A DNA stretch of 64,000 nucleotides, from the NCBI GenBank assembly GCA_025617375.2, contig JAMYGW020000012.1, positions 496,001 through 560,000 on the forward strand, given 5' to 3'. The notes under the pieces were generated by a model. The model ran no database searches. It saw nothing but the letters and a program-made list of their open reading frames with translations, and was not told the origin of the DNA. This document shows positions 6,846-44,042 of this stretch, in pieces. This DNA is from Acarospora socialis. Its lineage: Eukaryota > Ascomycota > Lecanoromycetes > Acarosporales > Acarosporaceae. Within the stretch, counting starts at the first letter, position 1. Each line of letters starts with the position of its first letter. Both the position numbers and the translations under genes were made by a program.

Positions 6846-7113
6846 AAAAGAATGTTAAAAATATATGTTACAGTTTTAACAGAGCTTATGTAAACTTTTA
6901 TAGAGAAAATATTAATGAAATATGTGTCTGAATAGATCTTAACTTTGTGATTTTACTATGTAGAGACTTTCATATTTAATTGCAAGACTGTTGTATCTTT
7001 GTATCTAGAATAATGACAGTAAGATAAATAAAATTAAAGTGATCATTAAATTAAGTTAAATCAGAAATCTTTGACTTGATCTGATCTGCAGATTAAGTCA
7101 AACTTAAAATTCT

Positions 7114-7140
7114 GACTCAACTTGATCTGCAAGTTGAGTC
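7114..7140. repeat. Perfect palindrome, 11-bp arms
   Basis: GACTCAACTTG, a 5-base loop, then CAAGTTGAGTC. It has survived in otherwise heavily mutated DNA and lies within a block that recurs near 43.7 kb. Confidence 0.8.
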
Positions 7141-7363
7141 AGAGTTAAGTCAGATTTTTCTTAATAATTTTACACTAGTTCTATATACATTAGAAGATTG
7201 ATTACTAAGATTCTATGTCATTTAGTCATAGTTGTGCATAGAATCATAATTGTTTGAGTGATGCATTAAAAAGATGTATTAAAAAGATGTGTTAAAAAAA
7301 AGTCTTAAACAAAAAGTACACATAATCTTCATTATATAGCTACAGACAATCTACTGATAGCAT

Positions 7364-7368
7364 TATTG
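7364..7368 (+). repeat. Target-site duplication TATTG (left of Gypsy I)
   Basis: This five-base flank does not match the other side of Gypsy I (CAATA, 13,540-13,544). It matches the reverse complement of the bases left of Gypsy IV (30,094-30,098). It is part of the evidence for the inversion. Confidence 0.65.
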
Positions 7369-7686
7369 TATTATGATTATATTTCAAGAAAAGTAACATG
7401 TCAAGAAGTATACTGAGTGAGATGTAATCAGAAGCATGAGACAATGAAATGTCAGATGTTTTCTTGTAAACATGTGTCTAAAGTACATTAGAACACTGAA
7501 ACATTGAGTGTGTCAGTGTGTCTGAATTCTATATAGTAGAATTGATTTTCTTATGAAATCAATTGTGTTCAACTTAAATAACAATCTAAGAGTTAAAGAT
7601 CAGAATCATTTCAGATCAGTCACTATATTAACAAGCACAAATTCTTAGCTTTACATATCTGAGAAAGCTCAGATTAAAATGTTACA
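7369..7686 (+). repeat. 5' LTR of Gypsy I (318 bp)
   Basis: It ends TGTTACA. It is the same length and type as 13,222-13,539 and as both LTRs of the inverted copy at 30-36 kb. Confidence 0.85.
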
Positions 7687-10600
7687 CTTTGAACACTCTT
7701 ATGATATAGTGAGTATGATGTCTGACACACAGAAAAATATCTTAATCTTGTTCTTAAATCAGACTTAAGTGAACTCATCTTTAACATTTACTTCAGATAG
7801 AACAGCAGCACAATCAGTAATGATGTCAGTTCAAGTTATACAATTATCTCTGAGTGCATCTAAGATACAGATACTGAATGTTTTTGATGAAGAATGAGAA
7901 AAGCTGCAAGTCTTTGTGACTAAACTCAATCTGTACATTGAATTCAATCAACTGAAGTTTCAAATTGATCAAGAAAAGATGTTGTTTGCAATAACTTATC
8001 TCATGAATGCAGTCTTCAATTGAGTTGATCTCAAACTGCATGAGTTTCTGAAAAAAGAGTATAAAGAATGCAATGTGAACATGAAGTTTATGTTTAATGA
8101 TTATGAACAGTTTAAAGAAGAGTTAAGAAAAGTCTTTGAAGTAATTAATGAGAAAAGAACAGCAAAAAAACAAGTTCATATCTTGCAACAGAGTGAATCA
8201 GTGACAGTATATGTCATCAAGTTTCAGTAGTTAGTAGTACTTATTAAATAAAATGATAAAGCACTCATCTATCAGTATTATTGTGAGTTAAGAAAGTTCA
8301 TTAAAGACAAGATAGTCTGAGCAGAATAATCAGACAATCTTCAGAAAATGATTGATCTGAGTATTAGTATTGACAGTTGTCAATGAGAATGATAGATGAA
8401 ACAAAAAAAATATTGAATGTCATCTATAATAAAAGATCAAGAAGAAAGCTTCTGACTGTGAATAAAGCAGTATATTTTATTAATAAGATATAGAGAAATG
8501 ATTTCTATAAATCTCAACATAATTAAGAAGTACTGTCAGAAGTCATAAAAGACTAAATAAATAAAGTTTGAATGTCAATCAGAGCAGTTCACTAAGTCTT
8601 AGATAACATTATGAAACAAAATGTAAATGTATTACAACTGTAAAAAATCTGAACATCTTGCTTGAGAGTGCAACAGATCTTGAATAAAAAAAAAGAATAT
8701 TGCAGCAACAGTTAAGAAGAATACATGTATAATGCATGATGTTCTCAACTAAACAGTCTGCTACAATGACATATGTAGAGTACATATAAGTGCAAAAAAT
8801 AGAGTCAAATAATATTCTCAGAAATTGTATAAAGACATAAGAGATAAATATGACACAATGAGTTGATCAATCTACAAGAAAGAATTAACTACTCTTACAA
8901 GAAAATATATCAAGAAGAATGTTCTTGATGTCAAGATTAAAGAGACTGATACTTAAGAAACTCAAATAGAAAAAAACTACAGCAATAACATCTGACAGAC
9001 ACTGAATTTGAATGTAAATCAGAAAAAAAATCAACAAATAAAAAGTCAATATGAGACTGAAGAAAGCATATCAGCATTTAAAAAATCAACATAAGATGTT
9101 GAAGAAAGATAAGCTTCAGTTTAAAAAGCAAGAGCTTGAGCAAGAAGTACAAGCTTGAGAACAAAAAGCACAATGCAAAGATACAAAAAAGTAAAAAACA
9201 TATGATCAGCTAGAGAAGCTGATGATAGCTGTTAAAGACAAATGTCTCAACAATGACAATGCAGTATTGCTGAAATCTCTTGTTTGAAAGACAAAGAGTC
9301 ACAAGATTAAAATACATTTATATGAGAAGTATATCACACAGAATAAAGACAGATGAATCTTCAGCAGAGAATATATATTACTTAAATTTCTGCAAAGAGT
9401 AAAAGTCTTTGAGAGTCAGTTGTAGATGAAGTATGATCAGTATAAATTCTAATTACACTCAGAAAAATACATTGAGCAGTACAGTCTAAAGTATGTGAAT
9501 CTTATGATCAAAAGAAAATCAAAATGATTTTAAGAGCTTTGAAGATGAGCTGAAAAATCAAGTAAATCAAAAAATAAAAGATTTTCTTGACAAGACTAGA
9601 GATCAAGAAGCTAGTGATGTCTCAAAGAAACAACAGTGATCATTAAATATAAATCATAATTAAGATCAACAAACATCAGATCAATGCATTGATGAATTTT
9701 GAAGTGAATGATAACATTATAAACTGTAAAGTGATTAATATGTTGAAACTGATGACACAGTGAGTGCACTGTTCATTCAACATATGAATGACAAATGAAA
9801 TCATAAAAAGAATTGAAGAGAAAATCTGTGTGAAAGTCTCAATTCTTGAAAATTCACAAGAGATAATCTTTAATATTATGAAATCAATCAGATATGATGC
9901 AATGCTAAGAATGTCTTGACTACATGAGAGAAATTCAAAGATTGATTGAGTTACAAAAAAAATATACACAATCAAAGATGCATACAAGATTTCTGAACAA
10001 TCAGAGATGAGCTTATCAGAATATAAGTCATGAAATCATAAAATACTGCTATTGAAGAGAAAATAATCTAAGTAAATATCATTATACTCAATGAGCAAGA
10101 ATAAGCTCAAGAAAGTCAGAACTTATCTTGACAAGAATCTCAAAAAAGAATTTATAAAATCATTAAAGTCATCAGCAGAATACTCAATTCTGTTTGTATC
10201 AAAGAAGAATGACAAGAAATGACTATGTGTCAATTATAAACAACTCAACAAAATAACTCATTGAAACAGTTATTTTCTATCATTGATAGAAGAGTTACAA
10301 GATCAGTTAGATAAGACTAAGTAATTCACAAGCTTAAATCTTAAAAAGATCTACTATCAAGTCAGAATAAAGAAAGATAAAAAGTGAAAGACAGCATTCT
10401 GAATGTGATATGAGCATTATAAGTACATTGTCATGTTATTTGAGCTAAAAAATGCTCTCACTATCTTTCAGAAATTAATCAATAACATATTAAAAGAATA
10501 TCTTGATGATTTTGTGATCACATATCTCAATAATATTCTGATATATTTAGAAGATCTTAAAAAGCACTGCAAGTATGTGCAGAAAATATTAGTCAGACTT

Positions 10601-13221
10601 AATGAGAAAGTTCTGTACATGAAAAAGTCAAAAAGCAGATTTAAGATCAAGAAAGTTAAGTTTTTAAATTATGTAATTCAATCTGAACAAATCAAAAAGA
10701 ATTTAAAAAAAACAGAAGCAGTCAGAAACTGATTAACATCAAAATGAATCAAGAAAGTACAGGTCTTTCTAGAATTAATGAATTATTATTGAAAATTTGT
10801 ATCAAATTATGCAAGAATTGCAAAATCACTAACACATTTGACACACAAAAGTAAAAAATAACATTGAAATAAGAAGCAAAAGAATGTGTTTTACATATTA
10901 AAGAGAAGTTTTAGTGAAATGACACATCTGAGAATACTCAATTCAGTATGTAAGAAGACATTGAAAATCAATGCTTCAGATTTCACAGTAAACACATATT
11001 TATATCAGATTGAGAAAGAACAGCAGAAACTCATAACATATCAATTTAGAAAACTATCAGAACTCAAGAAAAGATATGAGATTCATGACAAAGAATTATT
11101 TGCAATAGTGAAGACACTGCAAGATTGAAGATCTTATCTTGCAAAAACAAACAAGTCAATTCAGATTTATACAGATCACAAGAATTTGAGAAACTTTGTA
11201 ATGACAAAGTAACTCAATTAATGACAGATTCATTGAGCAAAACAGTTGACAGACTATGAATTTCAAATATATTACAAGAAAAATAATGAGAATAATGAAA
11301 CAGATGTCTTGAGCAGACAATTTGATCATGAAAATGTACAAATGATATATGTCAGAATTTTAAGTGAAGATGACAAAGAGATTCTTACAAAGAATTTAAC
11401 AACAATGCATAAGATAAAACAAGCTTTCTTAACAGATGTAAAACTCATCAAAATGTATTATTACAACAGAATTAAAGAACATTTAGAGATCAAATGCACT
11501 GAGAACTTAGTGTGAAGAAGATACAACATTAATGATTTTAGAAATTGAGTTATTAAGATGATTGCTGTGTGTGACTCATGTCAAAGAAATAAGATTAATT
11601 AAGATAGACAATATGATGAAATAACACAACTAAATGCATTGAATGCATCATGAAAGTCAGTTACTATGAACTTCATTATAAAACTATCATCATTGAAGAA
11701 TTCAGCATGAAAGATGAAATTCAATAATATATTGATTATAGTGAACAGATTAATCAAGTACACAATGTTCATTTCATTCAAGAAAACTGCAACAGCATCA
11801 GTATTAATATACATTATACTGCAAGAATTGATTAGCAATCATGAACTATTAAAAGAATTTATTATCAACAGAAACAAACTGTTTACAAACAAGTTTTGAA
11901 AAACACTTACAGCAGAACTCAGAATAAAGCATAAGATATTAACAGTATATCATTTACAGATAAATGAACAAAGTGAGTGAATGAATTAAACAGTGAAAAC
12001 ATACTTGAAACACTATGTCAACAAAAATCAGAATAACTAAGTACAACTATTGTTAACAGTACAGTTTGCATACAACAGTGTGAAGAATGAAATCACAAGA
12101 AAAACATCTTTCTATATGAACTATGACTATAATCTGAAGATATAACAAGATTTTAAAAAACATGAATTACAGAGTCAAAAAGTAATTTTGAGTATTGCTT
12201 AGATGAAGAAACTGCATCAAGATTTAATGAAATGAATTGAACAACAGATGAAACAAGTAACAAAGACAAAATCATTTAAAGAAGAAGAGAAGATATATTT
12301 AAGAACAAATAACATAAAAACAAAGAAAAAAAGCAAGAAGTTGAAAAGCAAGAGCATTGAATCATTCAGAATTATATGAAATATTAAGAGATTGAGCTAT
12401 GAGTTAAACTTATTCAAGAAAATGAGAATACACTCAGTATTTCATGCATTCATGCTACAGCACTGCAATCAGTTCATATTACTTTAAGTCACTGAAATAT
12501 CTGTCAAACTCAATGAAGAATATAAAGTTAAGAACATTTTGAGAAGAAGAATGATTAGTGAAAAAGCTCACTATCTCATGAAATAAAAAGATCATGATAT
12601 CTCAAAAAATATCTGAAAATCTAAGAACAATCTCAAGAACTGCATGAGAACACTTCAATATTTTAAGAAAAAAGATCAATATCAGTTCAGAAGAAAAGAA
12701 ATATTGTATTGATTAATTGTAATAATGATTGAGAATTTTCATTCTCTGTCTCATCATTATCATCAGTAAGCTCTTAAGTGAGATACTTCACTTTGATGTC
12801 TATTAAAACTTTTAATTATTTTAACATTTTTCACAAACAAGCAATTTTAACTAGAAGCACAGAAAGTTGTTTATGAAGAATTTGAAAAAGTTCACTCTCA
12901 ATTCTAGAATGAATAGACTCAAGAAAGTTAAGAGAAAGATTGATGCAGAAATGATCTCAGTGTATACATTCAGCACATTTTGCTGACTTTAAGAAGTCAA
13001 ATAACAATAAAGAATTAAATGACATTATTATGCAGAAGAAATCAATGTTCAGACAATAATTACAAAAAATGAGTGTGAAATCTTCTTTACAGAATATGAT
13101 ATCAGTAAGATGAAGACAATTTTTAAATTTTGAATGCATCATCAGTGAATGATGAACAATGCAGATATATACTTTTGCTTAAATAAACTTTAAAAACTAG
13201 CATCTAGAAAGAAAAGAATGA

Positions 13222-13539
13222 TGTTATGATTATATTTTAAGAAAAATAACATATCAAAAAATATATTGAATAAGACATAATCAGAGACACAGAACAATGA
13301 AATGTTAAATATTTTCTTGTAAATATGTATTTAAAACACATCAGAATGCTGAAACATCAGATGTGTCAGTATGTCTGAATTCTATATAGTAGAATTAATT
13401 CTCTTATGAAATTAATTATATTTAACTTAAATAACAATTTAAGAGTTAAAGATCAGAATCATTTCAGATCAGTCACTATATCAATAAGTACAAACTCTTA
13501 GCTTTACATATCTGAGAAAGCTCAGATTAAAATGTTACA
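13222..13539 (+). repeat. 3' LTR of Gypsy I (318 bp)
   Basis: It begins TGTTATGATTATA and ends TGTTACA. It is followed directly by CAATA and then by mid-gag sequence of another Gypsy element. Confidence 0.85.
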
Positions 13540-16500
13540 CAATAATGATTAAAATAAAGATAAAGAAATCAAGCATAGTGCATGATGCTCTGAGTTAAAC
13601 AGTCTGTTATAATAATCTATGTTATGCATATATGAGCAGTAAAGATAAAGTCAGATAATACTTACAAAAGCTGAATTGAAGAAAGAGAAGCAGCTATGAT
13701 GAGACAAGTTAATCAGCAATTTACAAGAAAGAATTAACTGTGCTTATTAAGAAAAGAGTTCTTGATGCTGAGAAAGAAGACAATGCTCTTGAAGATGACA
13801 TTGAAGAAATGAATGATCATAAATTTCAGATTAACAAATCATGAATATTTTCTGATAGTTATATACTTACAGAAAAAAGTTTGAATGATGTTGAGATAGA
13901 ACTCTCAAAGAAATATTAAATGAAGATTGAAGAAAATTTAAATGCTCAAAGAAAAGTGACACAAATCTGCAAGACAATGTGAAAGAAAAAGTGAAAGAGT
14001 CAAGATCAGAAAGTGAAGACATGCAAGAAATTTAATAATTTGATGAGAAATATACAGACAGTTACATGAGAACTGATGTCAGAATTTCTTGTATAAAGAA
14101 CAAAGAGTTACAAGATGAAGATACATTTATCTGAAGAGTATATCATGCAAAATGAAGACAGATGAATCTTCAGTGAAGAGTATATATCATTTGAATTTCT
14201 GTAAAGAGTAAAAGTCTTTGAGAGTCAGTTGCAGATGAAGTACAATCAGTATGAACTTTAACTACATCTGAAAAGATATATTGAGCAGTACAGTCTAGAG
14301 TATGTGAATCTTATGATTGAAAAAAAATCAAGATGATTTCAAGAACTTTGAAGACAAGCTGAGAACTTAAGAGAGTTAAAAAATGAAGAGCTTTCTTGAT
14401 GAGATTAAAGAACAAGAAGCTAGTGATATCTCAAAGAAAGAACAATGATTATCAAATATAAATCAAAATTGAAATCAACAATCATCAAATCAATACATTG
14501 ATGAATTCTGAAGCAGATAGCAACATTTTGAATTGAAAAATAATTGACATGTTGAAATTAGAAATATAATGAATGAATCACTCATTCAACATATAAATAA
14601 TCAATGAAGTCATCAAAAGAGTTGAAGAGAAAATCTGTATGAAAGTCTCAATTCTTAAAAACTCACAAGAGATAATATTCAACATTATAGAATCAATTAA
14701 ATATGATGCTATACTAGAAATGTTCTGATTACACAGAAAGAACTTTAAAATTGATTGAGTTACAAAAGAAATATGTGCAGTTAAGAATACATATGAAATT
14801 TCTGAACAATTGAAGATGAGCTTATCAGAACATAAGTTATGAAATCATGAAATACTGCTATTGAATGAAAAGCAATCTAAGTGAATGTCACTATACTCAA
14901 TGAGTGAAAATCAGCTCAAGAAAGTTAGAATTTATCTTGATAAAAATCTAAAAAAAAAATTCATAAAATCATCAAAATCATCAGTGAAGTATCTGATCTT
15001 GTTTGTACTCAAAAAGCATGACAAAAAATGATTATGTGTTGATTACAGACAACTCAACAAGATAACTCATTGAAACAATTATTCTCTATCATTAATAGAA
15101 GAGTTGCAAGACTAACTAAACAAGACTAAGTGATTCATCAGCTTAGATCTCAAGAAGATTTATTATTAAATAAGAATGAAGAAAGACAAAAAATAAAAAA
15201 TGATGTTCTGAACACAATATGAACACTATGAATATATTGTTATGTCATTTGAACTAAAAAATGTTTCTGTTATCTTTCAATAATTAATTAACAATACATT
15301 AAGAGAGTATCTCAATGATTTTGTAATCATGTATCTTAATGATATTCTGATATATTTAGAAGATCTTAAGAAATATTGCAAACATGTATGCAAGATATTA
15401 GTAAGACTCAATGAAAGAGCTCTGTACATGAAAAAGTCAAAATGCAGATTTGAAATCAAGAAAATCAGATTTCTAAACTACATGATTCAATCTGAACAAA
15501 TCAAGAAAGATTTAAAAAAGATGAAGACAGTCAAAAATTGATTAACATCAAAACAGATTAAAAAAGTACAAGCTTTTTTAGAATTAACAAACTATTATCA
15601 AAAGTTCATATCAAATTATGCAAAAATTACAGAATCACTGATGCATCTGACACACAAAAGCAAAAAATAACATTGAAACAAGAAGCAAGAAAATGCATTT
15701 CACATATTAAAGAAAAGTTTTAGTGAAACAGCACATCTGAAAATACTCAATTCAGCATATGAGAAGATACTGAAAACTGACACTTTGAATTTTACAATAA
15801 ACACATATTTATGTCAGATCAAGAATGAGCAACAAAAACTCATAGTATATTGATTTAGAAAACTATCAGAACTCAAGAAAAGATATGAGATTTATGACAA
15901 GAAACTTCTTACAATAGTGAAAGCACTGCAAAACTGAAGATCTTATCTTGCAGAAATAAGCAAGTTAATTTAGATCTATATGAATCATAAGAATTTGAGA
16001 AACTTCACAACAACAAAGCAACTCAATCAACAACAGATTCATTGAACAGAACAGTTAACAGACTATGAATTTCAGATACATTACAAGAAAAATAATGAGA
16101 ATAATGAAGTAAATGCTCTGAGCAGATGATCTGATTATGAGAGAGTAAAGTGAGTTTATGTTGAAATTCTCAGTGAAGACAACAACAAAATTCTCACAAA
16201 AGACTTAGCAGCAACATACAAGATAAAGCAAGCTTTTTTGACAGATAAAAAACTCATTGAGATGTGTCACTACAGTAGAAATTAAAGAATATCTAAAAGT
16301 CAAATATATGAAAGATCTTGTACAGAGAAGATGCAACATTAACAATCTTAGAAATTGAGTCATCAAGATGATCACTGTGTGCAATTCATGCTGAAGAAAT
16401 AAAATCAATTACAATAGACAATATGATGAAGTAACACAACTAGATGCATCAAATGCATCATGAAATTCAATTATCATGAACTTCATTATGAAGCTATTAT

Positions 16501-18356
16501 TATCAAAGAATTCAGCATGAAAAGTGAAATTCAACAATATATTGACTTTAGTGAACAGATTAATCAAGTACATTATGTTCATTTCATTTAAAGAAATCAC
16601 AACAACATTAGTATTAACATATATCATACTGTGAGAATTGATTAACAATTATAAGCTATCAAAGAAATTTATCACTGACAGAGACAAACTGTTTACAAAT
16701 AAATTTTAAAAAATGCTCACAGCAGAACTCAGAATAAAGCACAAAATGTTAATAACATATTATTCACAAACAGATGAGCAGAGCAAATAAATAAATCAAA
16801 TAGTAAAAACATACTTAAAACACTATGTCAATCAGAATCAGAATGACTGAGTATGACTGTTATTAATGACATAGTTTGTGTATAATAACACAAAAAATGA
16901 AATCATAAGAGAGACATCTTTCTATGTAAATTATAACTATAACTCAAAGATATGACAGAATTCACAGAGACACAGATCATAAAGTCAAAAAGTGATTTTA
17001 AATATTGTTTAGATGAAAAAACTACATCAAGATTTAACAAAACAAATTAAACAGCAGACAGAACAAACAACAAAGACAAGATTATTTAAAATAAAAGAAA
17101 AAATATACTTGAGAATGAACAACATAAAAACTAAAAAAAGAAGCAAGAAGTTAGAGAATAAGAGCATTGAATCATTTAAGATAATATGAAATGTTAAAAA
17201 ATAAAGTTATGAGTTAGATTTATTTAAGAAAATGAGAATACACTCAGTATTTCATGCATTCATGCTACAGCACTGCAATCAGTTCATATTACTTCAAATC
17301 ACTGAAACATCTGTTAAACTCAATGAAGAATATGAAATTGAGAACATTTTAGAAAAGAGAATGATTAGTGAGAAAGCTCACTATCTCATAAAATGAAAAG
17401 ATTATGATATCTTGAAAAATATCTGAAAATTTAAGAAAAATCTCAAGAACTGCACAAGAACACTTCAATATTTTGAGAAAAAAAGATGATGTTAACTTGG
17501 AAGAATGATGATATTAAGTCAACAAGTTATGATGTTGTTTGAGAATCTCTATTCTCAATTTCATCATTATTACTATTAAGTTCAACAGCAAGACAGTCAG
17601 TCTTCTGTGTGACATAACAATTCATTTAATTTAAAGTTTTTTGAAAATGCATCATCTTGACAGCAAGAACATCAAGAATCACATTTACATCATTTATTTT
17701 TTTTCAGAGAGAAAGACAAGTTCTGTTGAGAGACTTTCATGAAACTGCAATATATAAATGACTATGATGAGTACACTTATCACATTTTGATCTTTCATCA
17801 ATCATAACAAAGCAATCAAGACTGCAGACAGTACAGAATTCACAAGAAAATGTGATGAGACTATCACTGAGTTGAATTTTCTTTGCAATTCTTAGACAAT
17901 TGAAATTTTTAAAAAACATCATTACTGACAACAGATTTGTTATATACTCTTACTTAAATAAATTCTAGAGAACTAACACCTGAAGAAGAAAAATGATGTT
18001 ATGATCATATTCTGTAAGAAAAAAACTCATGAGTTTATACTCAGAAGTTCACTCAAAGCATATATGAAGAAAACTGTTAAACAGCAGTCACATAATAATG
18101 TAACAGCTTAATGACAAGCAGACAAGCTGAAAGCTCAATCTCTTGACATCAAGACATCAAGACATCAAGAATGCTCAATGCAGAGATATTGAGCTCACTC
18201 TATATAGTAGAGTTGTTTTTCTTATAAAAACAATTATGTTTAACTTAAATAACAATCTAAGAGTTAAAGACCAGAATCATTTCAGATCAGTTGTTATATT
18301 AATAAGCACAAATTTTTAGCTTTTATACAGAAGAAATCTTCTGTGAGAATGTTACA
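13540..18356 (+). mobile_element. Ty3/Gypsy fossil Z, 3' part (mid-gag to 3' LTR)
   Basis: It starts abruptly inside gag, just after the zinc-knuckle region, and continues through reverse transcriptase (about 15,000-15,540), RNase H, integrase, chromodomain (about 17,320-17,480), the antisense accessory frame (about 17,500-17,960) and a 360-bp 3' LTR (17,997-18,356). Its missing 5' LTR and first part of gag sit on the minus strand at 36,268-37,648, which carries the same private LTR variant and ends at the same gag position. It is broken and old. Confidence 0.85.
17997..18356 (+). repeat. 3' LTR of Gypsy Z (360 bp)
   Basis: It begins TGTTATGATCATA and ends TGTTACA. A stretch near its 3' end (CAGAAGAAATCTTCTG) is shared only with the minus-strand LTR at 37,289-37,648, tying the two halves together. 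I could not find a matching five-base flank. Confidence 0.8.
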
Positions 18357-18974
18357 CAAAGTCAAAATCATAAACATTATTAATCTTGCTGATTGTGTCT
18401 GAGTTAACTGTGTACTCATATAAGTGAAAGTCATGATGCTTGATAAGCATAATGTGTTGAATTGTCTTAATATTGAGTTAATTTCATCAATAATGACACA
18501 CATTGCAGATCATATTGAAAAGACACTTAATACTCACTTTTGCAATAGATATAGTGAGTACATCTTTGACAAATTGAGTCATAATAAACTTAATCTTTTC
18601 TTATAATTTTCACTCATTTAGAATGTTAAGATCTTTCACAAGTGCAGTTTGCAGTCATGTTGTGACTTTGAATGCAGTAATTTTTGATATTTTCTCACTG
18701 AACTGCTGTTGTAGTCAAATGACAGCTTCAAGATTAAGATGTACAGTCTTGACTGCTGAAATATTTAAATGTACAGCTGATTAAATTTCAAGCTGTTGAT
18801 AATATCTTTTGTAATATGATCTGAATTTGCACTCATAGTATTTTTAATGTTTCAGTTTTCATACTGAACTCTTAATGTTGAAGTGCTGTTAGTAGCTAAG
18901 TGTTAAATTAAAGTATTAAAAAGAAGTTACACATCTGATAAATACTGAGTTTAATGTTTGAATTCAAAACACTG
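18357..18974. other. AT-rich non-element stretch left of Gypsy III
   Basis: 618 bp lacking CpG and with no coding I recognise. Because Gypsy III has a clean target duplication, this stretch was once continuous with 25,156 onward, where a hAT transposase fossil lies on the minus strand. It may hold the far end of that element, but I see no diagnostic motif. Confidence 0.4.
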
Positions 18975-18979
18975 TCAAG
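18975..18979. repeat. Target-site duplication TCAAG, left copy
   Basis: It matches 25,151-25,155 exactly and brackets Gypsy III. Confidence 0.85.
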
Positions 18980-19341
18980 TGTTACAACTATATCTGAAGA
19001 AGAAGAAACTCACAGATCTGTGATCAAGAGTTTACCTGAAGTGCATACAAGAAGAACTGCTAAACAGCAGTCACATAACAAGCACAACAGCTCAATGATG
19101 AGCAGACAAGCTGAGAACTCAATCTCTCAACATTGAGATATCAAGACATCAAGAATACTCAACACAGAAACATCAAGCACATTCTATATAGTAGAGTTGT
19201 TTCTCTTATGAAAACAATCATGTTCAACTTAAGTAATCATCTAAGAGTTAAAGACCAGAATCATTTCAGATCAGTTATTATATCAATAAGCACAAATTCT
19301 TAGCTCTACACACTCAAGAAAGCTCAGGTTAAGATGTTACA
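18980..19341 (+). repeat. 5' LTR of Gypsy III (362 bp)
   Basis: It begins TGTTACAACTATA and ends TGTTACA. It belongs to the same subfamily as the Z LTR but without its private stretch. Confidence 0.87.
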
Positions 19342-24787: not shown

Positions 24788-25150
24788 TGTTATAATCATA
24801 TCTGAAGAAGAAAAAAACTCATGAGTCTGTGATTAAGAGTTCATCTGAAGTGCATACAAGAAGAACTGCTAGACAGTAGTTACATGACAAGCACAACAGC
24901 TCAATGATGAGCAGATGAGCTGAGAGCTCAACTTCTCAACATTGAAACATCAAGACATCAAGAGTGCTCAATGCAGAGATGTTGAGCACATTCTATATAG
25001 TAGAGTTGTTTCTTTTATGAAAACAATCATGTTCAACTTAAGTAATCATCTAAGAGTTAAAGATCAGAATCATTTCAGACCAGTCATTATATCAATAAGC
25101 ACAAACTCTTAGCTCTACATACTTGAGAAAGCTCAGGTTAGAATGTTACA
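24788..25150 (+). repeat. 3' LTR of Gypsy III (363 bp)
   Basis: It begins TGTTATAATCATA and ends TGTTACA, followed by the TCAAG duplication. Confidence 0.87.
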
Positions 25151-25155
25151 TCAAG
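25151..25155. repeat. Target-site duplication TCAAG, right copy
   Basis: It is identical to 18,975-18,979. Confidence 0.85.
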
Positions 25156-26850
25156 ATTGTATAATGTGTCTTGTTTATTAGTAGTTTTGCTGCAATACTG
25201 AGAAAGCTTGTTCTTGACATTTTTGATTGTGTTACTTAATTAAGATGTAAATAACAATTCATAGATATTTACTTTCACTCATTAATCTTTAAGATAATCA
25301 AACAAGTTATTGTAGACATATTATGCTTTATTAATGATTGACTCAGCAGTAAAATTAAATACATTAATCAAAGTCTTAAATGACTTCAGAAGCTTAACAA
25401 TATATTTAATTTGTTTTTATTTTTTATGAAAGATTTTCAACATACTTATTGATTTACTTTAAGCAGAAATTCATTCTTTAAGCTTATTTCTGTGTTCAAG
25501 TACTCACATTAACATATTATAAATTGAGTTTCAGCATGTCTTGACATCTTAAATTATCTCAACAACTTTGACAAAAATTACATTTTGCAATCACTTGAAC
25601 TGCTTAAGTCTCTGAGAAATGCAATTGATGATAATTGTAAATGTTTGAATCTGTGATAATTTTATTCAGTATATTAAATATTTTCATTAAAATAAAATGT
25701 ATTTTTTTCAGTGTGTTATCAAACAAGACAAAATTCATTGATATGATAGCAAAAGTTGTAGAGTCAAAAGTTTCAGTAATTTTCTTGTTGAATATCTCTG
25801 CTTTGAGTTTCTTAAGTAATTTGTTCATAGTTAATTGAATGATGTATGTTATACAATTCATTGTGTTTTTCTGATAGTTTCAATTCACACTTTATTGTTT
25901 CAGTAGTTTACTAAGATGTTTGCAAAGAATCTGATTGTTGTATGTATTGTTTGCTGTAACAGCAAAAAGTTTTGTTTTCAGCTTTCATGACTCAAAAACA
26001 TCAATTACATAGCTAATTAGATTTTCATCAGTATGCACTTCTTTTAGTTCTTTGAAGTCAAGAAGAACTTTATGATAATTTCAGTCTTCATTGATGAAAT
26101 AGTCAGTAATTTTCATAAAAGCAAGATTATTTAAACTAATTCAACAGTTCAAAACTATAAAAACTTTAATCTGAGATTCAAGTTCTTCAAGAACAAATAT
26201 GCACACTTTCTTATATTGTTTCTTCAAAAAATTAACAATCTTTGTGCAGTCAGAAATCTTTGTATCTGAATAAAGTATCTCAATAAATCTTTTAAAATAA
26301 AAATGTTCTACTGATCAGAAAGATCAGTTGAGTATAAAAATGATTGTAAGTAGTTACTGCTTGAATACTTTAACTGTAAATGATGACATCTTTGTAGAGA
26401 CTGTGACAGAGTTTTAGTGATATGAGTGTTAAAAATCAGTATTAGAAAAATGAAGTAATTGACTGATCTGTTTATCAAATGTTGAGATTAGATTATCTTG
26501 TTGTTTATCTTATAACTGTTGCACACTTTAACATGTTTTATAATTCAGATGTCTTTTCATTGAACTAATTTTGTCATTTATTATAGTGAGATATATCATC
26601 AAAATTTCACATCTTTTGCAGAGCATCTTGAGTTCTTCATTAATAATAAACATAATCAGTTCAAAGATAAATTATACTCTGAAAATTTGTACTGCATTAT
26701 TTCACAGAAGTAATTTCTTTCAATTGATTTCAGATAAATGTTTGACAGCTTAGTGTGTTGTTTTTCATCAGTTTTAAAATTCTTCACTGATGTCTGAATC
26801 ATAACATAAGAATTTTGCTTTTAAAGATTGAATTAAATATGTAAATGAAG
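25156..26850 (-). mobile_element. hAT-family DNA transposon fossil
   Basis: Read on the minus strand, the remnant shows a BED-finger-like stretch (CKRC followed by SSMKRHLNYKTC, about 26,510-26,640) and further in (about 26,110 down to 25,600) the hAT core: DYF-like, VLLDF, an HTDENL motif, an AVTANNTYNN motif matching the family TADNASNN, and NCITYIIQL matching the family CLAHVIQL. It contains scattered stops and cannot be functional. Its far end is interrupted by Gypsy III. Terminal inverted repeats and the 8-bp target duplication usual for hAT elements were not found. Confidence 0.7.
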
Positions 26851-29800
26851 TTGCTGTGTGAGAAGAACAAGTGATACTGTTGTGCATGAAACTTCAGCTT
26901 TTGCTAAGCTCACTAAGTTGTTAATTTAATTTAATCTCTTATTCATATGATATAGAGTTCTGTGAAGTCATAGTTTCTTAAAATGTAAATATAGATATTA
27001 CAGAATAATGATTCAATTAAATTATTATATAATTTGATCAGAGTAATAGCATTTTAACAATTATTTTTAATGCTACAAACACTAAATTAATCAAGCTGAT
27101 TACAGTATTACTGATCAATGAAATGTAACATTTTATTGAGTTGACTCTTCAAGTCAATTATTAGTTCTCTTTTGTATGATCATTAATATTAATTTCTTTT
27201 ATCTTCTCATTCTCATACTCTCTTCAACTAATTTTAATTTCAATCTTTTTGTTTGCTTCTTCATTCACATCATTGTTAATGACTTTATCTTTATTGAAAT
27301 TATCTTTCTAATATTCATCTTCATTGCTGAAACTTAAAATCAAAAAATACAATACTTCAATCTCTGAAGTATCTGTCAAAAAATCAGCAAGAAAATTGTT
27401 TACTGAGATTGTTCTGTCAGATTGCTCATCATTATTTAACTTTACATGAATTTGTGATTTTACAACAACACTTTTTTTCTTTTTGTCTGCTTGTTTCATG
27501 ACAGATGACAGAATATAACTATAAATATGTCAATTTTGTTGACACTGAAATTTGATACATTAGAAAAATGTATTAAAATGATATAATATGTGTTTGATTC
27601 TTACTCATGCTCTTTACACTCAATATATTTTGAGTTCTCAATCTGCAATTGAAATCTTCTTATTGTCTTCTTTAAGTTCTTATTCTCAACTGTCTTCAAG
27701 AACTTTTCTTTACACAAATTGATTATACACTCTTGATGCTTGATAATCACTGTAAAATTATTGATTTATATTTTTTTAAATTTACTCATAATGTCTTCAG
27801 ATTCAATCTGCAACAATATATTAACTTAAGTGAAATAAAAATCAGCATTAAAACAACTTCACTGAGTTCTTCAATTATTCATTTAACATAAACTTTCTTG
27901 AACAAAATCATACAATCTTCTTTTTTTTAAACTTTGATCTATCTCTGCAATCAATATGCTTCAATTTTGATCTGATTAATGAGAAATTTCTTTATAAGTA
28001 GATTAGAATATGAGCATTAAAACTAACTGTTAAAATTCAGAAAACATTTACTGAAAATATTAAGATTATAAAGTTCAACTTTCAATGCATTGACAGTGTT
28101 ATTTTTCACAATCTTTTGCTGAGTCTTTGTTGCTGATTTTCAGTCATTAAATGCATACAATTTCTTCAAAACAATATACTTTATATTTCAATCTGCTGCA
28201 TCTACTTGTTCAATTTGTCTTATTGTGAAATTGTTAAATAATGCTTATTGTTGCTCTTTGATCTGAGTTGTTGCAGAATTTGTACTATACTTAAATGATG
28301 TTTTACTTAAAGCAAAATTTAAATTCATCAATGAACAATTTCTTATTTCAGTAACACAGTGATTCTGCAGTCATTCTTCAATCAATGAGAAATTTTCAAC
28401 TTCAAAAAATAATAATGATGTGAAATCTTTCTTAACTTATCACTTCTTTTTTTTTGCTGAGAACTTGAAACTGATGCACTTTCATTTTGTCTGCTTAGAC
28501 TGATGAGTTTTTGATGATGAGTTATGAGAACTTTATATTTTATTTATTAATATAATAATTAAACTGATGTTAAATTATTGCATTAAAACACATCTTTACA
28601 TCAATTTCTTTCATATTGTGGTCATTCATATCACTTTTATAAGAAGATGACTCAGTCTAGCAACTATCAGTATATCAACATCAATTCAGCTTTAGAATGA
28701 TGTATTAAAATACATATTTGTATTGCTGTTCTTCTCAACATTATTGTTTTCATCACTGTTTTTCTCAATAGTATTCTTCTCAACATCATCTTTCTCATCA
28801 TCATCTTTCTCAGAATCATTCTCAACAACATTATTGATGATAACAATACTCTTTGAATTCAATCTCATTACAGTGTTTTTAAAAGATAACTCAAGCTGCA
28901 ACAACAATCAGTATATCATCATTTAAGTGTTAGAATAAAGTGTTAAAACATACAATTACATTGTTTTCTGAGTTATCTGCTTCATTAATAAAATCATTGT
29001 GTCTTGACTGATCAGACACAAAGATCTTAAAGTGCAGTTGTGTATTAAGTATCTTGATTCTTGTCAGCACTAAAATCATTGTTAAAATTAATCATTAAAT
29101 TACACACTGCTTGCATGTCTGAATCTATGATGTCATCATTGTTAATTTGAACTGATATGAATTGCAGAAGTAAAAAAATGATATGTAAAAGAAGTTGAGA
29201 GAGAAGAAATGAGTAATGAGATGAATAAATTGTTATTATTATTTAATATTCACTGATCACATCTCAGATGTAAACAGAACAGCATAACAAAGCAATTACA
29301 ATTATACAATTACAATCACAATCAAAACAGACAGCATCATACAATATTGTCATCAAGACTACATTTACAATTAGCTTTACAAGATTTTCATTGCACTCAT
29401 CATAGAGTAAGTGAGCAATCACTCTTTTTAATGCTCAGTTTTAATAATTATATAATTTTGCAAGATGACACAAACAAAAGTCACACTCAAATTTATCAAA
29501 ATATCAAAGAAATCTTCTATCATCTCAGTTCAGAAGAAGTCAAAGTATGTTTAATATATTAAAATACTTATTAAATACAACAACAATGTTAAAGCATACA
29601 ATCAACACAAAAAACAAATCAAAACAAAGAAAAAGAAATTTCAGAAGTCTAAATTGATCAAATTAACTTCTGTTGTGAAGTCAGAAGATATGTTATAGTT
29701 TATTTTTAATTTAATACTTAAATTTAACACTCAAGATCTAGAGCACATCATATAAGAGATAAAATACTATTAAAAGTTTACAACATCATTAATCTCAGCA

Positions 29801-30098
29801 CATTCTTTTCAAAAACTCATCAAGAAAATCAAACAGAACTATGAGCAGAACTATAAATGACAACAAAATACAATTAATGCATTGTAAAAGATTGCAGAGA
29901 TATATATTATTACATTTTTTAAGAGTATGCAATCAAGATATTGTACATCAAATCTCAACTAACATTAAGTTCAGATATCAATCTAATCTGTATTCATATT
30001 AATTGCATCATGATACAGATAAAGAATATGAAATTGATCAAGACATACATAATTAAGTGAAGTTTATATGTTAAGCAATATTCAGTTTTACAACAATA
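26851..30098. other. AT-rich degraded stretch, no gene recognised
   Basis: About 3.2 kb with no CpG seen and no reading frame that I can assign. The longest frames are lysine- and asparagine-rich and lack family motifs. It contains a degenerate minisatellite at about 28,730-28,835 and CAATTA-type repeats near 29,285-29,330. The final five bases (CAATA, 30,094-30,098) are the flank of Gypsy IV. It may include copia-1 or hAT sequence mutated beyond recognition. Confidence 0.5.
28730..28835. repeat. Degenerate minisatellite (TTCTCAACATCATCT-like)
   Basis: Seven or so units of about 15 bp. On the minus strand they would encode an acidic EKN/EKD repeat, but no gene context supports translation. 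Confidence 0.6.
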
Positions 30099-30416
30099 TG
30101 TAACATTTTAATCTAAGCTTTCTCAGATATGTAGAACTAAGAGTTTGTGCTTGTTGATATAGTAACTGATCTGAAATGATTCTGATCTTTAACTCTTAGA
30201 TTGTTATTTAAGTTGAACATGATTGATTTCATAAGAAAATTGATTTTACTATATAAAACTCAGACACACTGACATATCTGGTGTTTCAGCATTCTGATGT
30301 GCTTTAAATACATGTTTATAAAAAAATATCTGATGTTTCATTGTTCTGTGTTTCTGATTATGTCTTATTTGATGTACTTTTTGACACATTACTTTTCTTA
30401 AGATATAATCATAACA
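30099..30416 (-). repeat. 3' LTR of Gypsy IV (318 bp)
   Basis: On the plus strand it starts TGTAACA and ends ATAACA. It is the same subfamily as Gypsy I. Confidence 0.85.
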
Positions 30417-33400
30417 TCATTCTTTTCTTTTTAGATGCTAGTCTCTAAAATCTATTTAAGTGAGAATATATATCTGCATTGTTCATCATTCACTGACAAT
30501 GCATTCAAAATTCAAAAATTGTCTTTGTCTTATCAATATCATATTTCATAAAGAAGATCTCACACTCATTTTTTATAATCATTGTCTGAACATCAATCTC
30601 TTCTGTGTAGTGATGTCATTTGATTCTTTGTTGTTGTCTGACTTCTTTAAGTCAGCAAAGTATGCTGAATGTATATGTCAAGATTGTTTCTGCATCAACT
30701 TTTCTCTTAACTTTCTTGAGTTTGTTCATTCTAAAACTGAAAGTGAACTTTCTTAAACTTTTAATGAACAACTTTCTGTACTTTTAACTAAAATTACTTA
30801 TCTGTAAAAAATGTTAAAATAATCAGAAGCTTGAATAAACATCAAAGTGAAGTGTCTCACTCAAGAGTTTACTGATAATAATGATGAAACAGAGAATGAA
30901 AATTCTCAATCATTATTGCAACTAATCAATACAATATTTCTTTTCTTCTGAACTGATATTAATCTTTTTTCTCAAAACATCAAAGTGTTCTTACACAGTT
31001 CTTAAGATTGTTCTTAGATTCTTAGATATTTTTTGAGATATCATGATCTTTTCATTTCATGAAATAGTGAATTTTCTCATTAATCATTTTTCTTTTCAGA
31101 ATATTCTTAACTTTATATTCTTCATCAGATTTAACAGACATTTCAGTGACTTAAAGTGATATGAACTGATTGCAGTGCTGTAGCATGAATGCATGAAATA
31201 CTGAGTGTATTCTCATTTTCTTGAATAAGTCTAATTCATAACTTAACTTCTTGATATTTCATATAATTCTGAATGATTCAATGTTCTTGTTTTTCAGTTT
31301 CTTGCTTTTTTTTCTTATTTTTATGTTGTTCATTCTTAAATATATTTTCTTTTCTTCTTTGAATAATTTTGTCTTTGTTACTTGTTCTGTCTGTTGTTCA
31401 ATTCATTTTGTTAAATCTTGATGCAGTTTCTTCATCTGAACAATGCTCAAAATTACTTTTTGACTTTGTGATTCATGTTTCTTAGAATTTCATTATATCT
31501 TTGAATTATAGTCATAGTTCACATAAAAAGACATTTCTTTCATGATCTCATTCTTTGCACTGTTGTACACAAACTGTACTGTTAACAATAGTTGTACTCA
31601 GTTGTTTTGATTTTTGTTGATATAGTGTTTTAAGTATGTTTTCACTGTTTAATTCATTCACTCACTTTGTTCATTCATCTATGAGTGATATGCTGTTGAT
31701 ATCTTGTACTTTATTTTGAGTTTTGCTGTGAGTGTTTCTTAAAACTTGCTTGTAAACAGCTTGTCTCTGTCAATAATAAATTCTTTTAATAACTCATGAT
31801 TGCTAATCAATTCTTGCAGTACAGTGTATGTTAATATTGATGCTGTTGCAGTTTTTTTGAATGAAATAAATATTGTGTACTTGATCAATCTGTTCATTAT
31901 GATCAATATACTATTGAATTTCACTCTTCATGTTGAATTCTTCAATAATGATAGTTTTGTGATGAAGTTCATAGTAACTGACTTTCATGATGCATTTAGT
32001 GCATCTAGTTATGTTATTTCATCATATTGTTTATTTTAATTGATCTTATTTCTTCAACATGAATTGCACACAGCAATCATCTTAATGACTCAATTTCTAA
32101 AATTGCTAACATTGCATCTTCTTTGCACTAAGTTCTCAGTGCATTTGATCTCTAGATGTTTTTTAATTCTGTTGTAATGATATATCTTGATGAGTTCTGC
32201 ATCTATCAAGAAAACTTGCTTTATTTTATGCATTGCTGTTAAGTTCTTCATGAGAATTTCTTTGTTATCTTTGCTTAAAATTCTGACATATATCATTTGT
32301 ATATTTTCATGATCAGATCATCTGCTTAAGACATCTGTTTCATTATTTTCATTATTTTTCTTGTAATGTATCTGAAATTTATAGTCTGTCAACTGTTCTG
32401 CTCAATGAATCTGTTGTTGATTGAGTTGCTTTGTTGTTGTGAAGTTTTTCAAATTCTTGTGATCTGTATAAATCTGAATTAACTTGCTTATTTTTGCAAG
32501 ATAAGATCTTCAATCTTGCAGTGTCTTCACTATTGCAAGTAGTTTTTTGTCATGAATCTTATATCTTTTCTTAAGTTCTGATAGTTTTCTAAATTAATAT
32601 GCTATAAGTTTTTGCTGCTCTTTCTTAATCTAATATAAATATGTGTTTATTGTGAAATCTGAAGCATTGATTTTCAGTATCTTCTTACATACTGAGTTGA
32701 GTATTTTCAGATGTGTCATTTCACTAAAACTTTTCTTTAATACATGAAACACATTCTTCTGCTTCTTATTTCAATGCTATTTTTTGCTTTTGTGTGTCAA
32801 ATGCATTAGTGATTCTGCAATTCTTGTGTAATTTGATACAAATTTTTAATAATAATTTGTTAATTCTAGAAAGATCTGTACTTTCTTGATTCATTTTGAT
32901 GTTAATCAGTTTCTAACTGCTTCTGTTTTCTTTAAATTTTTCTTGATCTGTTTAGATTGAATTATGTAGTTTAAAAACTCAATTTTCTTGATCTTAAATC
33001 TGCTTTTTGACTTTTTCACATACAGAACTCTCTCATTGAGTCTGACTAATATCTTTCACACATGCTCACAATACTTCTCAAGATCTTCTGAATATATCAA
33101 AATATTATTGAGATATGTGATCACAAAATCATCAAGATATTCTCTTAATATGTTATTGATTAATTTCTGAAAGATAGTGAGAGCATTTTTTAGCTCAAAT
33201 GACATGACAATATACTCATAATGCTCATACTATGTTCAAAATGCTGTCTTTCACTTTTTATCTTTCTTTATTCTGACTTGATAGTAGATCTTTTTAAGAT
33301 TTAAGTTTGTGAATCACTTAGTCTTGTTTAACTGATCTTGCAACTCTTTTATCAACAGTAGAGAATAACTGTCTTGATAAATTATCTCATTGAGTTGTCT

Positions 33401-35949
33401 ATAATTAACACATAGTTGTTTTTTATCATTCTTCTTTGATATAAACAGAATTAGATATTTTACTGATGACTTTGATGATTTTATGAATTCTCTCTTGAAA
33501 TTTTTGTCAAGATAAGTTCTGACTTTTTTGAGCTGATTCTTGCTCATTGAATATAATAATATTCACTTAGATTGTTTTCTCTTCAATAGCAATATTTCAT
33601 GATTTCATAACTTATGTTCTGATAAGCTCATCTTTGATTGTTCAGAGATCTTGTATGTGTCTTTAGCTGCACATATTTCTTTTGTAATTTAATTAATCTT
33701 TGAATTTCTCTCACATAGTCAAGACATCTCTAGCATTGCATCATATTCAATTGATTTCATAATATCAAAGATTATCTCTTGTGAGTTTTCAAGAATTGAG
33801 ACTATCACACAGATTTTCTCTTCAATTCTTTTCATGATTTCATTTATCATTTGTATGTTGAATGAACAGTGCACTCACTGTGTCATCAGTTTCAACATAT
33901 TAACTACTTTGCAATTTATAATATTACTGTTCACTTCAGAATTCATTAATGCATTAATTTGATGTTCATTGATCTCAATTATAATTCATATCTGATGATC
34001 ACTGTTGTTTCTTTGAGACATCACTAACTTTTTGATCTTTAATCTTGTTGAGAAAGCTCTTTATTTTTTGACTCACTTAATCTTTCAGTTCATCTTCAAA
34101 GCTCTTGAAATCATTTTGATTTTTTTTTGATCATAAAATTCACATACTCTAGACTGTGCTGCTCAATATGTCTTTCTGAGTGTAGTTGAGATTCATACTG
34201 ATCATACTTCATCTGCAACTGACTCTCAAAGACTTTTACTCTTTGCAGAAATTCAGATAATATATATTTTTCATTAAAAATTCATTTATCTTCATTCTGC
34301 ATGACATATCTCTCAGATAAGCATATTTTAATTTTGTGACTCTTTGTCTTTTAAACAAGAAATTTTGACAATACTGTGTCATCACTGTTGAAATATTTAT
34401 CTTTAACAGCTATCATCAGCTTCTTTAGCTAATCATATGTTTTTTACTTTTTTGTGTTTTTGCATTGTGCTTTTCATTCTCAAGCTTGCACTTCTTACTC
34501 AAGCTCTTGCTTCTTAAACTGAAACTTATCTTTTTTCAATATCTTACATTGATTTTCCAGATGCTGATATGCTTTCTTCAGTCTTATATTAACTTTTTAT
34601 TTGTCAATTTTTTTCTGATTCACATTCAAATTCAATGTCTGTCAGATGTTATCACTGTAGTCTTTTTCTATCTGAGTTTCTCAAGTATCAGTTTCTTTGA
34701 TCTCAGCATCAAGAATGTTCTTCTTGATATATTTTCTTGTAAGAGTAATTAATTCTTTTTCATAAATTGATCAACTCATTGTGTCATATCTGTCTCTTGC
34801 ATCTTTGCACAATTTCTGAGAATATCATTCAGCTTTATCTTTTGCACTTATGTGTACTCTACACATGTTATTGTAGCAGACTGTTCAGCTGAGAGTGTTG
34901 TACACTATACATGTATTTTTCTTAACTGTTGCTGCAACATTTTTTCTTTTCATTTAAGATCTGTTGCACTCTTGAACAAGATGTCTGAGTTTTTTACAGT
35001 TGTAATACATTCACATTTTGTTTTGTGATGTTATCTGAGACTTAGTGAATCACTTCAATTGACATTCAAACTCTGCTCATCTAGTCTTTCATGACTTTTG
35101 ATGATGCTTCTTAATCATATTAAGATTTATAAAATCTATTTTTCTATATCTTATTGATGAAACATATCACTTCATTCACAATCAAAAGCTTTCTTCTTGA
35201 TCTTTTATCATAAATAATATTCAATATTTTTTTGTTTAATCTGTTGTTCTCATTGATGACTGTTCATATTAATACTTAAATTGATTATTCTCTAAAGATT
35301 GTCTGATTGTTCTGCTTGAGCTATTTTGTTTTTGATGAACTTTCTTAACTCACAATAGTACTGATAGATGAGTGCTTTGTTATTTCATCTGATAAGTGTT
35401 GTTAATCACTGAAACTTAATGATGTATATTGTTGCTGATTCACTCTGTTGCAAAATATGAACTTATTTCTCTGCTACTCTTTTCTCATCAATTACTTTGA
35501 AGACTTTTCTTAACTCTTCTTTAAACTGTTCATAGTCATTAAACATAGACTTTATATCTGTATTGCATTCTTCATACTCTTTTTTCAGAAACTTATGCAG
35601 TTTAAAGTTAACTTAATTGAAGACTGCATCTGTGAGATAAGTTATCACAAACAATGTCTTTTCTTGATCAGTTTAAAACTTTAATTGATTGAATTCAATG
35701 TACAGATTGAGCTTAATCACAAAGACTCACAACTTTTCTCATTCTTCATCAAAGACATTCAATATCTGTATCTTAGATGCACTCAGAAATAGTTATATAG
35801 CTTAAGCTGACATCATCACTGATTATGCTGTCATTTTATCTGAAGTAAATGATAAAGATGAGTTTACTTGAATCTGATTCAAAAATAAGATTGAGATGTT
35901 TTTTTGTGTGTCAGACATTGTACTCATTATATTGTAAAAATGTTCAAAG

Positions 35950-36267
35950 TGTAATATTCTAATCTAAGCTTTCTCAGATATGTAGAACTAAAAGTTTATG
36001 CTTATTAATATAGTGATTGATCTGAAACAGTTCTGATCTTTAACTTTTAGATTGTTACTTAAGTTGAACATGATTGATTACATAAAAAAATCAATTCTAC
36101 TATATAGAACTCAGACACACTGACACACTCAATGTCTCAGTGTTCTAATATACTTTAAACATATGTTTATAAGAAAATATCTGATGTTTTGTTGTTCTGT
36201 GCTTCTGATTATGTCTTATTTAGTGTATTTTTTGACATGTTACTTTTCTTAAAGTATGACTGTAACA
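35950..36267 (-). repeat. 5' LTR of Gypsy IV (318 bp)
   Basis: It ends TGTAACA on the plus strand at 36,267 and is followed by TATTA and then minus-strand gag of Gypsy Z. Confidence 0.85.
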
Positions 36268-37648
36268 TATTACTGCAATATTTTTTCTATTTATTCAAGA
36301 TCTGTTGCATTCTCAGACAAGGTGTTCAGATTTCTTACAATTATAATACATTCACACTTCACTTCACAGTGTCATTTAAGACTTATTGAATCATTCTGTC
36401 TGACATTCAGACTTTACTTATTTAGTTTTTTATGACTTTTGATGATGCTTCTTGATTATATTAAGATTTATAGAGTTTATCTTTCTATATTTTATTAATA
36501 AAACATATCACTTTGTTCATAGTCAGAAGCTTTCTTCTTGATCTTTTATCATAAATAACATTCAATATTCTTTCTGTTTCATCTGTTGTTCTTATTGATA
36601 ATTGTTAATGTTGATACTCAGATTAATTATTCTTTAAAGATTGTCTGATCATTCTGCTCAGATTATTTTGTCTTTAATGAACTTTCTCAACTCACAATAG
36701 TACTGATAGATAAGTGCTTCATTATTTTATCTGATAAGTGCTACTAACTGCTGAAACTTTATGATGTATACTGTTATCAATTCACTCTGTCATAAGATAT
36801 GAACTCATTTCTCTGCTGTTCTTTCTTCATCAATTACTTTAAAGACTTTCTTTAGCTTCTTTTTAAACTGTTCATAGTCATTAAACATTGACTTCATATT
36901 TGTGTTGCATTCTTCATACTCTTTTCTCAGAAACTCATGCAGCTTAAAGTCAACTCAATTGAAGACTGCATTCACAAGATAAGTTGTTGTAAACAGTGTC
37001 TTTTCTTGATCAGTTTGAAACTTCAGTTAATTAAATTCAATATACAGATCAAGCTTCATCACAAAGACTCACAACTTTTCTTATTCTTTATCAAAGCTAT
37101 TGAGTACCTAAATCTTTGATGCATTCACAGATAGTTATATTATCTGAGTTAGTATCACTGATTGTGCTGTTGTTCTATTTGATGTAGATAGTAATGATGA
37201 GTTTGCTTAAGTCTGTCTCAAGAACAAGATTAAGACATTCTTCTGTGTGTCAGACATCATACTTGTTATATTGTAAGAATGTTCAAAGTGTAACATTTTC
37301 ACAAGAGATTTCTTCTGTATAAGAACTAAAAGTTTGTGCTTATTGATATAATAGTTGATCTGAAATGATTTTGATCTTTAACTTTTAGATTGTTACTTAA
37401 GTTGAACATGATCATTTTCATAAAAAAAACAACTCTACTATATAGAATGAGCTCAATACTTCTGTGTTGAGCACTCTTGATGTTTTGATGTTTTAATGTT
37501 GAGAAATTGAGTTCTCAGCTTGTTTGCTCACTGTTGAGCTGTTATACTGTTATGTGACTGCTGTTTAGCAGTTTTCTCTGTACACACTTCAAGTAAACTT
37601 CTGAGTATAAATCTGTGAGTTTTTTTCTTACAGAGTATAATCATAACA
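36268..37648 (-). mobile_element. Ty3/Gypsy fossil Z, 5' part (5' LTR to mid-gag)
   Basis: A minus-strand 5' LTR (37,289-37,648, 360 bp) is followed by gag as far as the zinc-knuckle region, where it stops at the edge of Gypsy IV. The break falls at the gag position where the fragment at 13,540 begins, and both share a private LTR variant. It is read as the first part of one element that Gypsy IV's precursor interrupted and that an inversion then separated. Confidence 0.85.
37289..37648 (-). repeat. 5' LTR of Gypsy Z (360 bp)
   Basis: It is the same length as 17,997-18,356 and shares its private stretch. Only three bases separate its outer end from the next LTR. Confidence 0.82.
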
Positions 37649-37651
37649 TTA

Positions 37652-38036
37652 TGTTATAATCAAGTCAGAATGAGCTTAAAATAAACTGATGTGTATATGT
37701 GAAAAGTATATATACAGAGAATATCTAGACAGCAGTTATGTGACATCTTAATATGCTTAATGATGAACTTGATGAGCAAGCTCAACAGATTGCATGAACA
37801 AGTCATCTTGATAAGCTTAACAACAAGATTGACAAGCAGACTCAGTATATAGTTACAGTCATTTTTCTTATGAAAAGAATCATGTTCAACTCAATTAATT
37901 ATGTACTAGTTACAATAAAGTGTTTACTCAACATCACTGTATTAAAGAACTCTTATATCAACAAGATCAAATATCTTAATTCTAACATACTCAAGAAATC
38001 TCAAATCAGATGTCACACTCTGATTAAAATGTAATA
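37652..38036 (+). repeat. 5' LTR of Gypsy VI (385 bp)
   Basis: It begins TGTTATAATCAAG. It shares the AAACTGATGTGTA and TATACAGAGAATATCTAG blocks with 42,890-43,274. Confidence 0.85.
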
Positions 38037-42889: not shown

Positions 42890-43274
42890 TGTTACAGTTA
42901 AGTTAGAATGAACTTAGAACAAACTGATGTGTACACATGAAAAGCATATATACAGAGAATATCTAGGCAGCAGTCATGTGACATCTCAATATGCTCAATG
43001 ATAAGCTTGACAAGCAAGCTCAACAGATTGCATGAGTGAGTCATCTCAACAGACTTGACAATGAGGTTGACAAGTGAGCTCAGTATATAGTCACAGTCAT
43101 TTTTCTTATGAAAAGAATTGTGTTCAACTCAATTAGTTACATACTAGTTACAATAAAGTGTTTACTCAACATCACTGTATTGAAGAACTCTTATATCAAC
43201 AAGATCAAACATCTTAGTTCTAACATACTCAAGAAATCTCAGATCAAACATCACACTTCAGTTAGAATGTAACA
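42890..43274 (+). repeat. 3' LTR of Gypsy VI (385 bp)
   Basis: It begins TGTTACAGTTAAG and ends TGTAACA. It is the same length as the 5' copy. Confidence 0.85.
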
Positions 43275-44037: not shown

Positions 44038-44042
44038 GATAT

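Follow-up and report, generated by a model that had tools for sequence, protein, structure and literature searches.

A probable inversion between two oppositely oriented Gypsy copies in a C-to-T-mutated repeat block of Acarospora socialis

Introduction

Two described systems come closest to the locus analysed here. In Drosophila buzzatii, the inversion 2z3 was generated by the transposon Galileo, as set out in PMC2775673, and the same source names inversions that arose through recombination between Ty elements in yeast. As far as that account goes, the Acarospora locus shares with 2z3 the opposite-orientation element copies at both breakpoints, the exchange of target-site duplications between them, and targets that are single-copy in the uninverted form—here observed in paralogous copies of two interrupted repeats, H and Z. 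There are also differences. Galileo is a P-superfamily DNA transposon, whereas the copies at our locus, Gypsy I and Gypsy IV, are LTR retrotransposons heavily mutated from C to T. For 2z3 the uninverted chromosome was sequenced, whereas here the uninverted order is that of further copies of H and Z; and the Galileo copies were reported to be chimeric, whereas in I and IV the informative LTR columns divide 13/10/2 (see below) and the transversions are not phasable. The yeast inversions, as named in that source, resemble the present case in that copies of a fungal LTR retrotransposon would have recombined to produce an inversion; unlike them, I and IV have since diverged to 87% identity. To our knowledge, no repeat-directed mutation operates in the yeast setting. 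In a limited search of the open literature we found no description of exchanged target-site duplications in a RIP-affected fungus.

Results

A repeat block depleted of CpG and CpC

The window—that is, the whole stretch of 64,000 nucleotides under analysis—corresponds to C12:496,001-560,000 in an assembly of 31.1 Mb and 38 contigs. Over positions 1-44,000 its G+C content is 25-31% (2-kb steps), rising to near 50% right of ~44,000, and none of the nine closed stop-to-stop frames of at least 200 codons in the window lies within the AT-rich part. The ORF at 59,916-61,547 is a carotenoid oxygenase whose best match under a species name is that of Pleopsidium flavum (73%), a member of a genus within Acarosporales; three unnamed matches stand at 87-88%. 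Judged by this one gene, the host is probably a lichen-forming fungus from that order or close to it. A 600-base gene piece compared with a plasmid collection gave no match.

Across the 44,000 bases of the block, CpG is absent (0 observed, 860 expected) and, on the plus strand, CpC occurs 21 times (824 expected) and GpG 17 times (897 expected). The observed-to-expected ratio is 1.52 for CpA and 0.635 for TpA, and TpA/ApT is 0.70. The CpG-free run measures 49,473 bases (C12:490,956-540,429, equal to window 1-44,429 plus 5.0 kb leftward). Of 58 other loci that we fetched, chosen by similarity to Z and hence not a random sample, 52 likewise lack CpG. At 22 of the 32 positions where element II (18,980-25,150, plus strand) retains CpC, TpC stands in I and IV.

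Classical, Neurospora-like RIP acts on duplicated DNA in the sexual cycle, preferentially changes CpA into TpA and raises TpA/ApT. Like the RIP-affected AT-rich blocks of filamentous ascomycetes, the present block displays almost only C:G to T:A changes (804 transitions vs 11 transversions between I and IV) and a sharp boundary with gene-rich DNA; unlike them, it has lost CpG and CpC but spared CpA, with neither the CpA to TpA preference nor the raised TpA/ApT. The signature is C-to-T mutation at CpG and CpC, not classical CpA-type RIP. According to a survey across the fungal kingdom, a preference for CpA is shared (PMC12543289), and other papers put on record a CpG bias in some fungi and, in S. 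nodorum, CpC/CpG depletion together with that of CpA (PMC2621366, PMC4014442). In the parts of the literature that our search covered we met no signature that combines CpG and CpC while sparing CpA, which does not in itself prove novelty.

Two Gypsy copies with crosswise target-site duplications

Gypsy I (7,369-13,539, plus strand; LTRs of 318 bp) and Gypsy IV (30,099-36,267, minus strand) bound the segment of interest on its left and right, respectively. Both carry paired LTRs with TG..CA ends, as does a further element, V (37,652-43,274, plus strand); one LTR end reads TA, as expected after a G-to-A change. The 5-bp duplications of I and IV pair crosswise between the two elements, and that of V is not clean. 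Comparison with Pfam returned RVT_1 (3.2e-8) and RT_RNaseH_2 (9.9e-13) for I and RVT_1 (1.5e-10) for V; two additional fragments, one each of I and IV, were without match. Judged by these features, I, IV and V are Ty3/gypsy LTR retrotransposons.

A reading of this DNA from its letters (hereafter, the sequence-only reading) had given the coordinates and five-base flanks of I and IV and had proposed that the flanks belong together crosswise, and we confirmed both points. TATTG at 7,364-7,368 is matched exactly by the reverse complement of CAATA at 30,094-30,098 (TATTG on the minus strand), and CAATA at 13,540-13,544 differs by one C/T change from TATTA at 36,268-36,272 (TAATA on the minus strand); the probability that these 5-mers agree by chance is about 2.6e-5. 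In what follows, E1 denotes the insertion of a Gypsy copy into H, to which the first pair would belong, and E2 that of a Gypsy copy into Z, marked by the second pair.

Unoccupied sites and arrangement of pieces in other H copies

The repeat underlying the block, H, sums to at least about 12 kb over its pieces, including 5.6 kb missing here, and four of four H fragments were without Pfam match. Since copies of H lacking these insertions exist in the same genome, the empty sites can be read there; the reference for the uninverted order is thus a set of paralogous repeats rather than the same locus of another isolate. For E1, we searched with 623 bases in which the left-hand outer H piece (7,073-7,368, plus strand) is followed directly by 29,767-30,093 in reverse-complemented form. 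Two of the 14 rows obtained were the window's own halves. Among the 12 non-window matches, ten crossed the junction without a break (C4 and C2 twice each, and C1, C3, C5, C9, C13 and C14 once each), and the other two stopped short of it. All eight crossing matches that we inspected base by base were continuous and contained the target once, for example as TACTG, CACTG or CATTG. This continuity argues that positions 7,368 and 30,093 were once adjacent and that the two TATTG are one duplication, whose right half (30,094-30,098) the inversion would have relocated.

The arrangement of the H pieces points the same way. The pieces at 18,357-18,979 and 25,156-30,093 (both plus strand, and flipped in our reading) are exactly consecutive in seven of nine non-window rows, with four unaligned bases between them in an eighth and no adjacent partner in the ninth; their junction is also the empty site of element II, which has kept an intact TCAAG/TCAAG duplication. 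For the right-hand outer piece (43,275-43,822, plus strand) there were 11 long non-window matches, two of them without an inner-piece partner. In all nine copies holding both on one contig, inner and right-hand outer pieces lie on opposite strands, spaced by 5.60-5.68 kb in seven copies and by 18.0 and 19.5 kb in two. In the window, unlike in these copies, every H piece lies on the plus strand, and flipping 13,540-30,098 restores the order seen elsewhere. Together with the piece order in other copies of Z, these comparisons support an inversion of at least 13,540-30,098 (16.6 kb) and at most 7,369-36,267 (28.9 kb), the same limits as had been proposed from the window itself. Such comparisons with further copies carry more weight than the five-base flanks.

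The two pieces of Z and the E2 site

Z is split into a 3′ piece within the inverted segment (13,540-18,356, plus strand; LTR at 17,997-18,356) and a 5′ piece outside it (36,268-37,648, minus strand; LTR at 37,289-37,648). Both Z flanks occur in one orientation in 49 of the 58 fetched relatives. When both pieces are aligned to these, their meeting ends share exactly 5 bp in 21 relatives (19 distinct places) and 17-18 bp in another 27, because the latter lack the 12 bp just past the site; a single relative (L044) is discordant, with hits far apart. In the 21 relatives the five overlap bases read CAGTA, CAATA or TGATA, suggesting that the E2 target was originally probably CGRTA, in which case CAATA and TAATA would represent two fates of one CpG. 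Moreover, the two LTRs of Z differ from each other by 60 transitions and 0 transversions, whereas 11 transversions separate them from the LTRs of II and 9-16 from ten other full-length LTRs (19 of the 29 loci examined yielded none).

The 5-bp overlap and the zero-transversion LTR pair mean that the two pieces are best read as a single insertion. This bears out the earlier claims that the pieces meet at the same position and share an LTR variant, and checking the Z alignment for an overlap or a large gap turned up an overlap that is precisely the 5-bp duplication. Neither breakpoint shows loss or gain, the E1 site being complete in 8/8 H copies inspected and the Z overlap in the 21 relatives amounting to the duplication.

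The outer flanks of Z are unequal: in Z's orientation they read CAAAG (18,357-18,361) and CATAA (37,649-37,653), and the 5′ end of Z and the start of V stand head to head, 3 bp (TTA) apart. A 2-bp deletion could reconcile the flanks, although this is a guess. The missing 5.6 kb of H (in the version of locus L091) found no match in the window, in C12:466,001-496,000 or in C12:560,001-565,000. Flank mismatch and missing H sequence beside V together call for at least one further change at the locus.

A probable exchange between formerly near-identical copies

I and IV are 87% identical; their 804 transitions and 11 transversions fall in 6,169 aligned sites (6,171 columns, 2 gaps), and their transversion rate is 0.18%, compared with 5.2% between I and II. 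The imbalance argues that I and IV were near-identical before C-to-T mutation, and near-identical 6.2-kb inverted repeats would have been a good substrate for homologous exchange. No transversion separates the paired LTRs of Z (360 sites), of II (362) or of V (385), and the four LTRs of I and IV have one private transversion; counted in this way, the insertions are young, however old the copies may look.

The comparison with paralogous copies shows that there were two distinct insertion sites, each marked by a 5-bp duplication, in which order their flanks originally stood, and that the inversion is derived relative to the other copies. For the full history, we consider the following account highly probable. 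H would have been present first, with V and Z inserted into it side by side. A Gypsy copy would have entered H at TATTG (E1) and a second, in opposite orientation, the gag part of Z at CAATA (E2). Homologous exchange between the two would then have inverted everything between them, leaving I and IV, and subsequent C-to-T saturation would have brought these down to 87% identity; II may have inserted before or after the inversion. The part of the sequence-only reading's event order that places a Gypsy copy within Z and then the inversion is upheld. That homologous recombination was the agent, acting on the copies while they were nearly identical and before C-to-T mutation, is what we infer, exchange between I and IV being the most economical mechanism.

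I and IV now share no identical run longer than 72 bp, and no identity (conversion) tract beyond chance was detected between them: the longest gap among 542 merged events is 73, against a random mean of 75 (P 0.51). This is consistent with an exchange that preceded mutation, without being proof of it. The sequence-only reading had looked to the I/IV alignment for a switch point, and none could be located. Had the exchange taken place in the middle of the elements, I-5′ and IV-3′ would have been one LTR pair at insertion, and IV-5′ and I-3′ the other. Of the 25 columns in which the four LTRs divide two and two, 13 pair 5′ with 5′, ten separate the two LTRs now in I from the two now in IV, and two are crosswise. 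Neighbouring columns are often linked products of one CpG, and by our own estimate the set reflects about 20 independent events. The scarcity of crosswise pairs may lean slightly towards a switch near an element end or no switch at all. Two other approaches were tried and rejected: the share of I-changed and IV-changed sites is about level along the element, and 11 transversions plus two gaps are not phasable, given that we found no closer third copy for the purpose. In LTR positions 108-140 of I and IV, nine columns within 33 bp have the 5′ LTRs agreeing against the 3′ LTRs; this run may reflect linked CpG products, chance or an old conversion.

Absence of a switch is what would be expected had two Gypsy cDNAs inserted simultaneously, each bridging the H site and the Z site, with the segment flipped meanwhile—a cross-integration that would yield the same flanks without exchange between resident copies. 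The closeness of I and IV (0.18% transversions) and the excess of columns pairing within the present elements over crosswise ones (10 vs 2) would fit such an event, but the column difference may be chance, given the linked CpG products and few independent events, and two simultaneous, mutually crossed integrations would be needed. We know of no crossed double integration for LTR elements. For cut-and-paste transposons, PMC2775673 considers a comparable rival, hybrid element insertion. On balance, we regard cross-integration as improbable.

We rate still lower the chance that the assembly joined the two inverted Gypsy copies the wrong way round. Such errors classically arise at inverted repeats of this length (6.2 kb), but at 87% identity and with no identical run above 72 bp, ordinary-length reads distinguish I from IV, and a wrong join would be needed at both elements. 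Finally, that there was no inversion, the Z pieces coming from different copies and the 5-mers matching by chance, is scarcely credible and already largely refuted: the unequal outer flanks of Z speak for it, but other H copies show another order, both pieces of Z break off at one base with 5 bp in common, no transversion separates the LTRs of these pieces where ten others differ by 9-16, and the 5-mers would agree by chance at about 2.6e-5.

Discussion

Homologous exchange between I and IV thus remains our preferred reading, and both insertion sites as well as the original order can be read from one assembly, an unusually complete reconstruction. The suggested order, exchange followed by C-to-T saturation, is relevant to the question of whether mutation aimed at repeats restrains ectopic recombination. 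The case also shows that old-looking copies (80-87% identical) can be young by transversions alone. More tentatively, and with the odds somewhat against it, the segment could flip for as long as the Gypsy copies were nearly identical, until repeat-directed C-to-T mutation locked its orientation. Were this true, genome defence would incidentally put an end to rearrangements driven by retrotransposons, and the orientation in which the segment was caught by mutation may differ from isolate to isolate.

Several minor observations concern the elements themselves. The Gypsy family of I and IV (E) is not confined to this locus, an idea we rejected when its first 160 bp matched many places at 74-91% (40 of 90 candidates scored). 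The E1 and E2 targets, TATTG and CAATA (7,364-7,368 and 13,540-13,544), are reverse complements of each other, through target preference or coincidence, and other copies suggest a CpG in both. V, at 5,623 bp, occupies the place of about 5.64 kb of H sequence in other copies, the similar lengths being perhaps a coincidence; its outer flanks are TTA, followed by Z, and CTCTA. Short repeats at 43,817-44,220, where the AT-rich block ends on the right, have dozens of partial genome-wide matches on both strands at up to 95% identity, a pattern as expected of miniature transposons.
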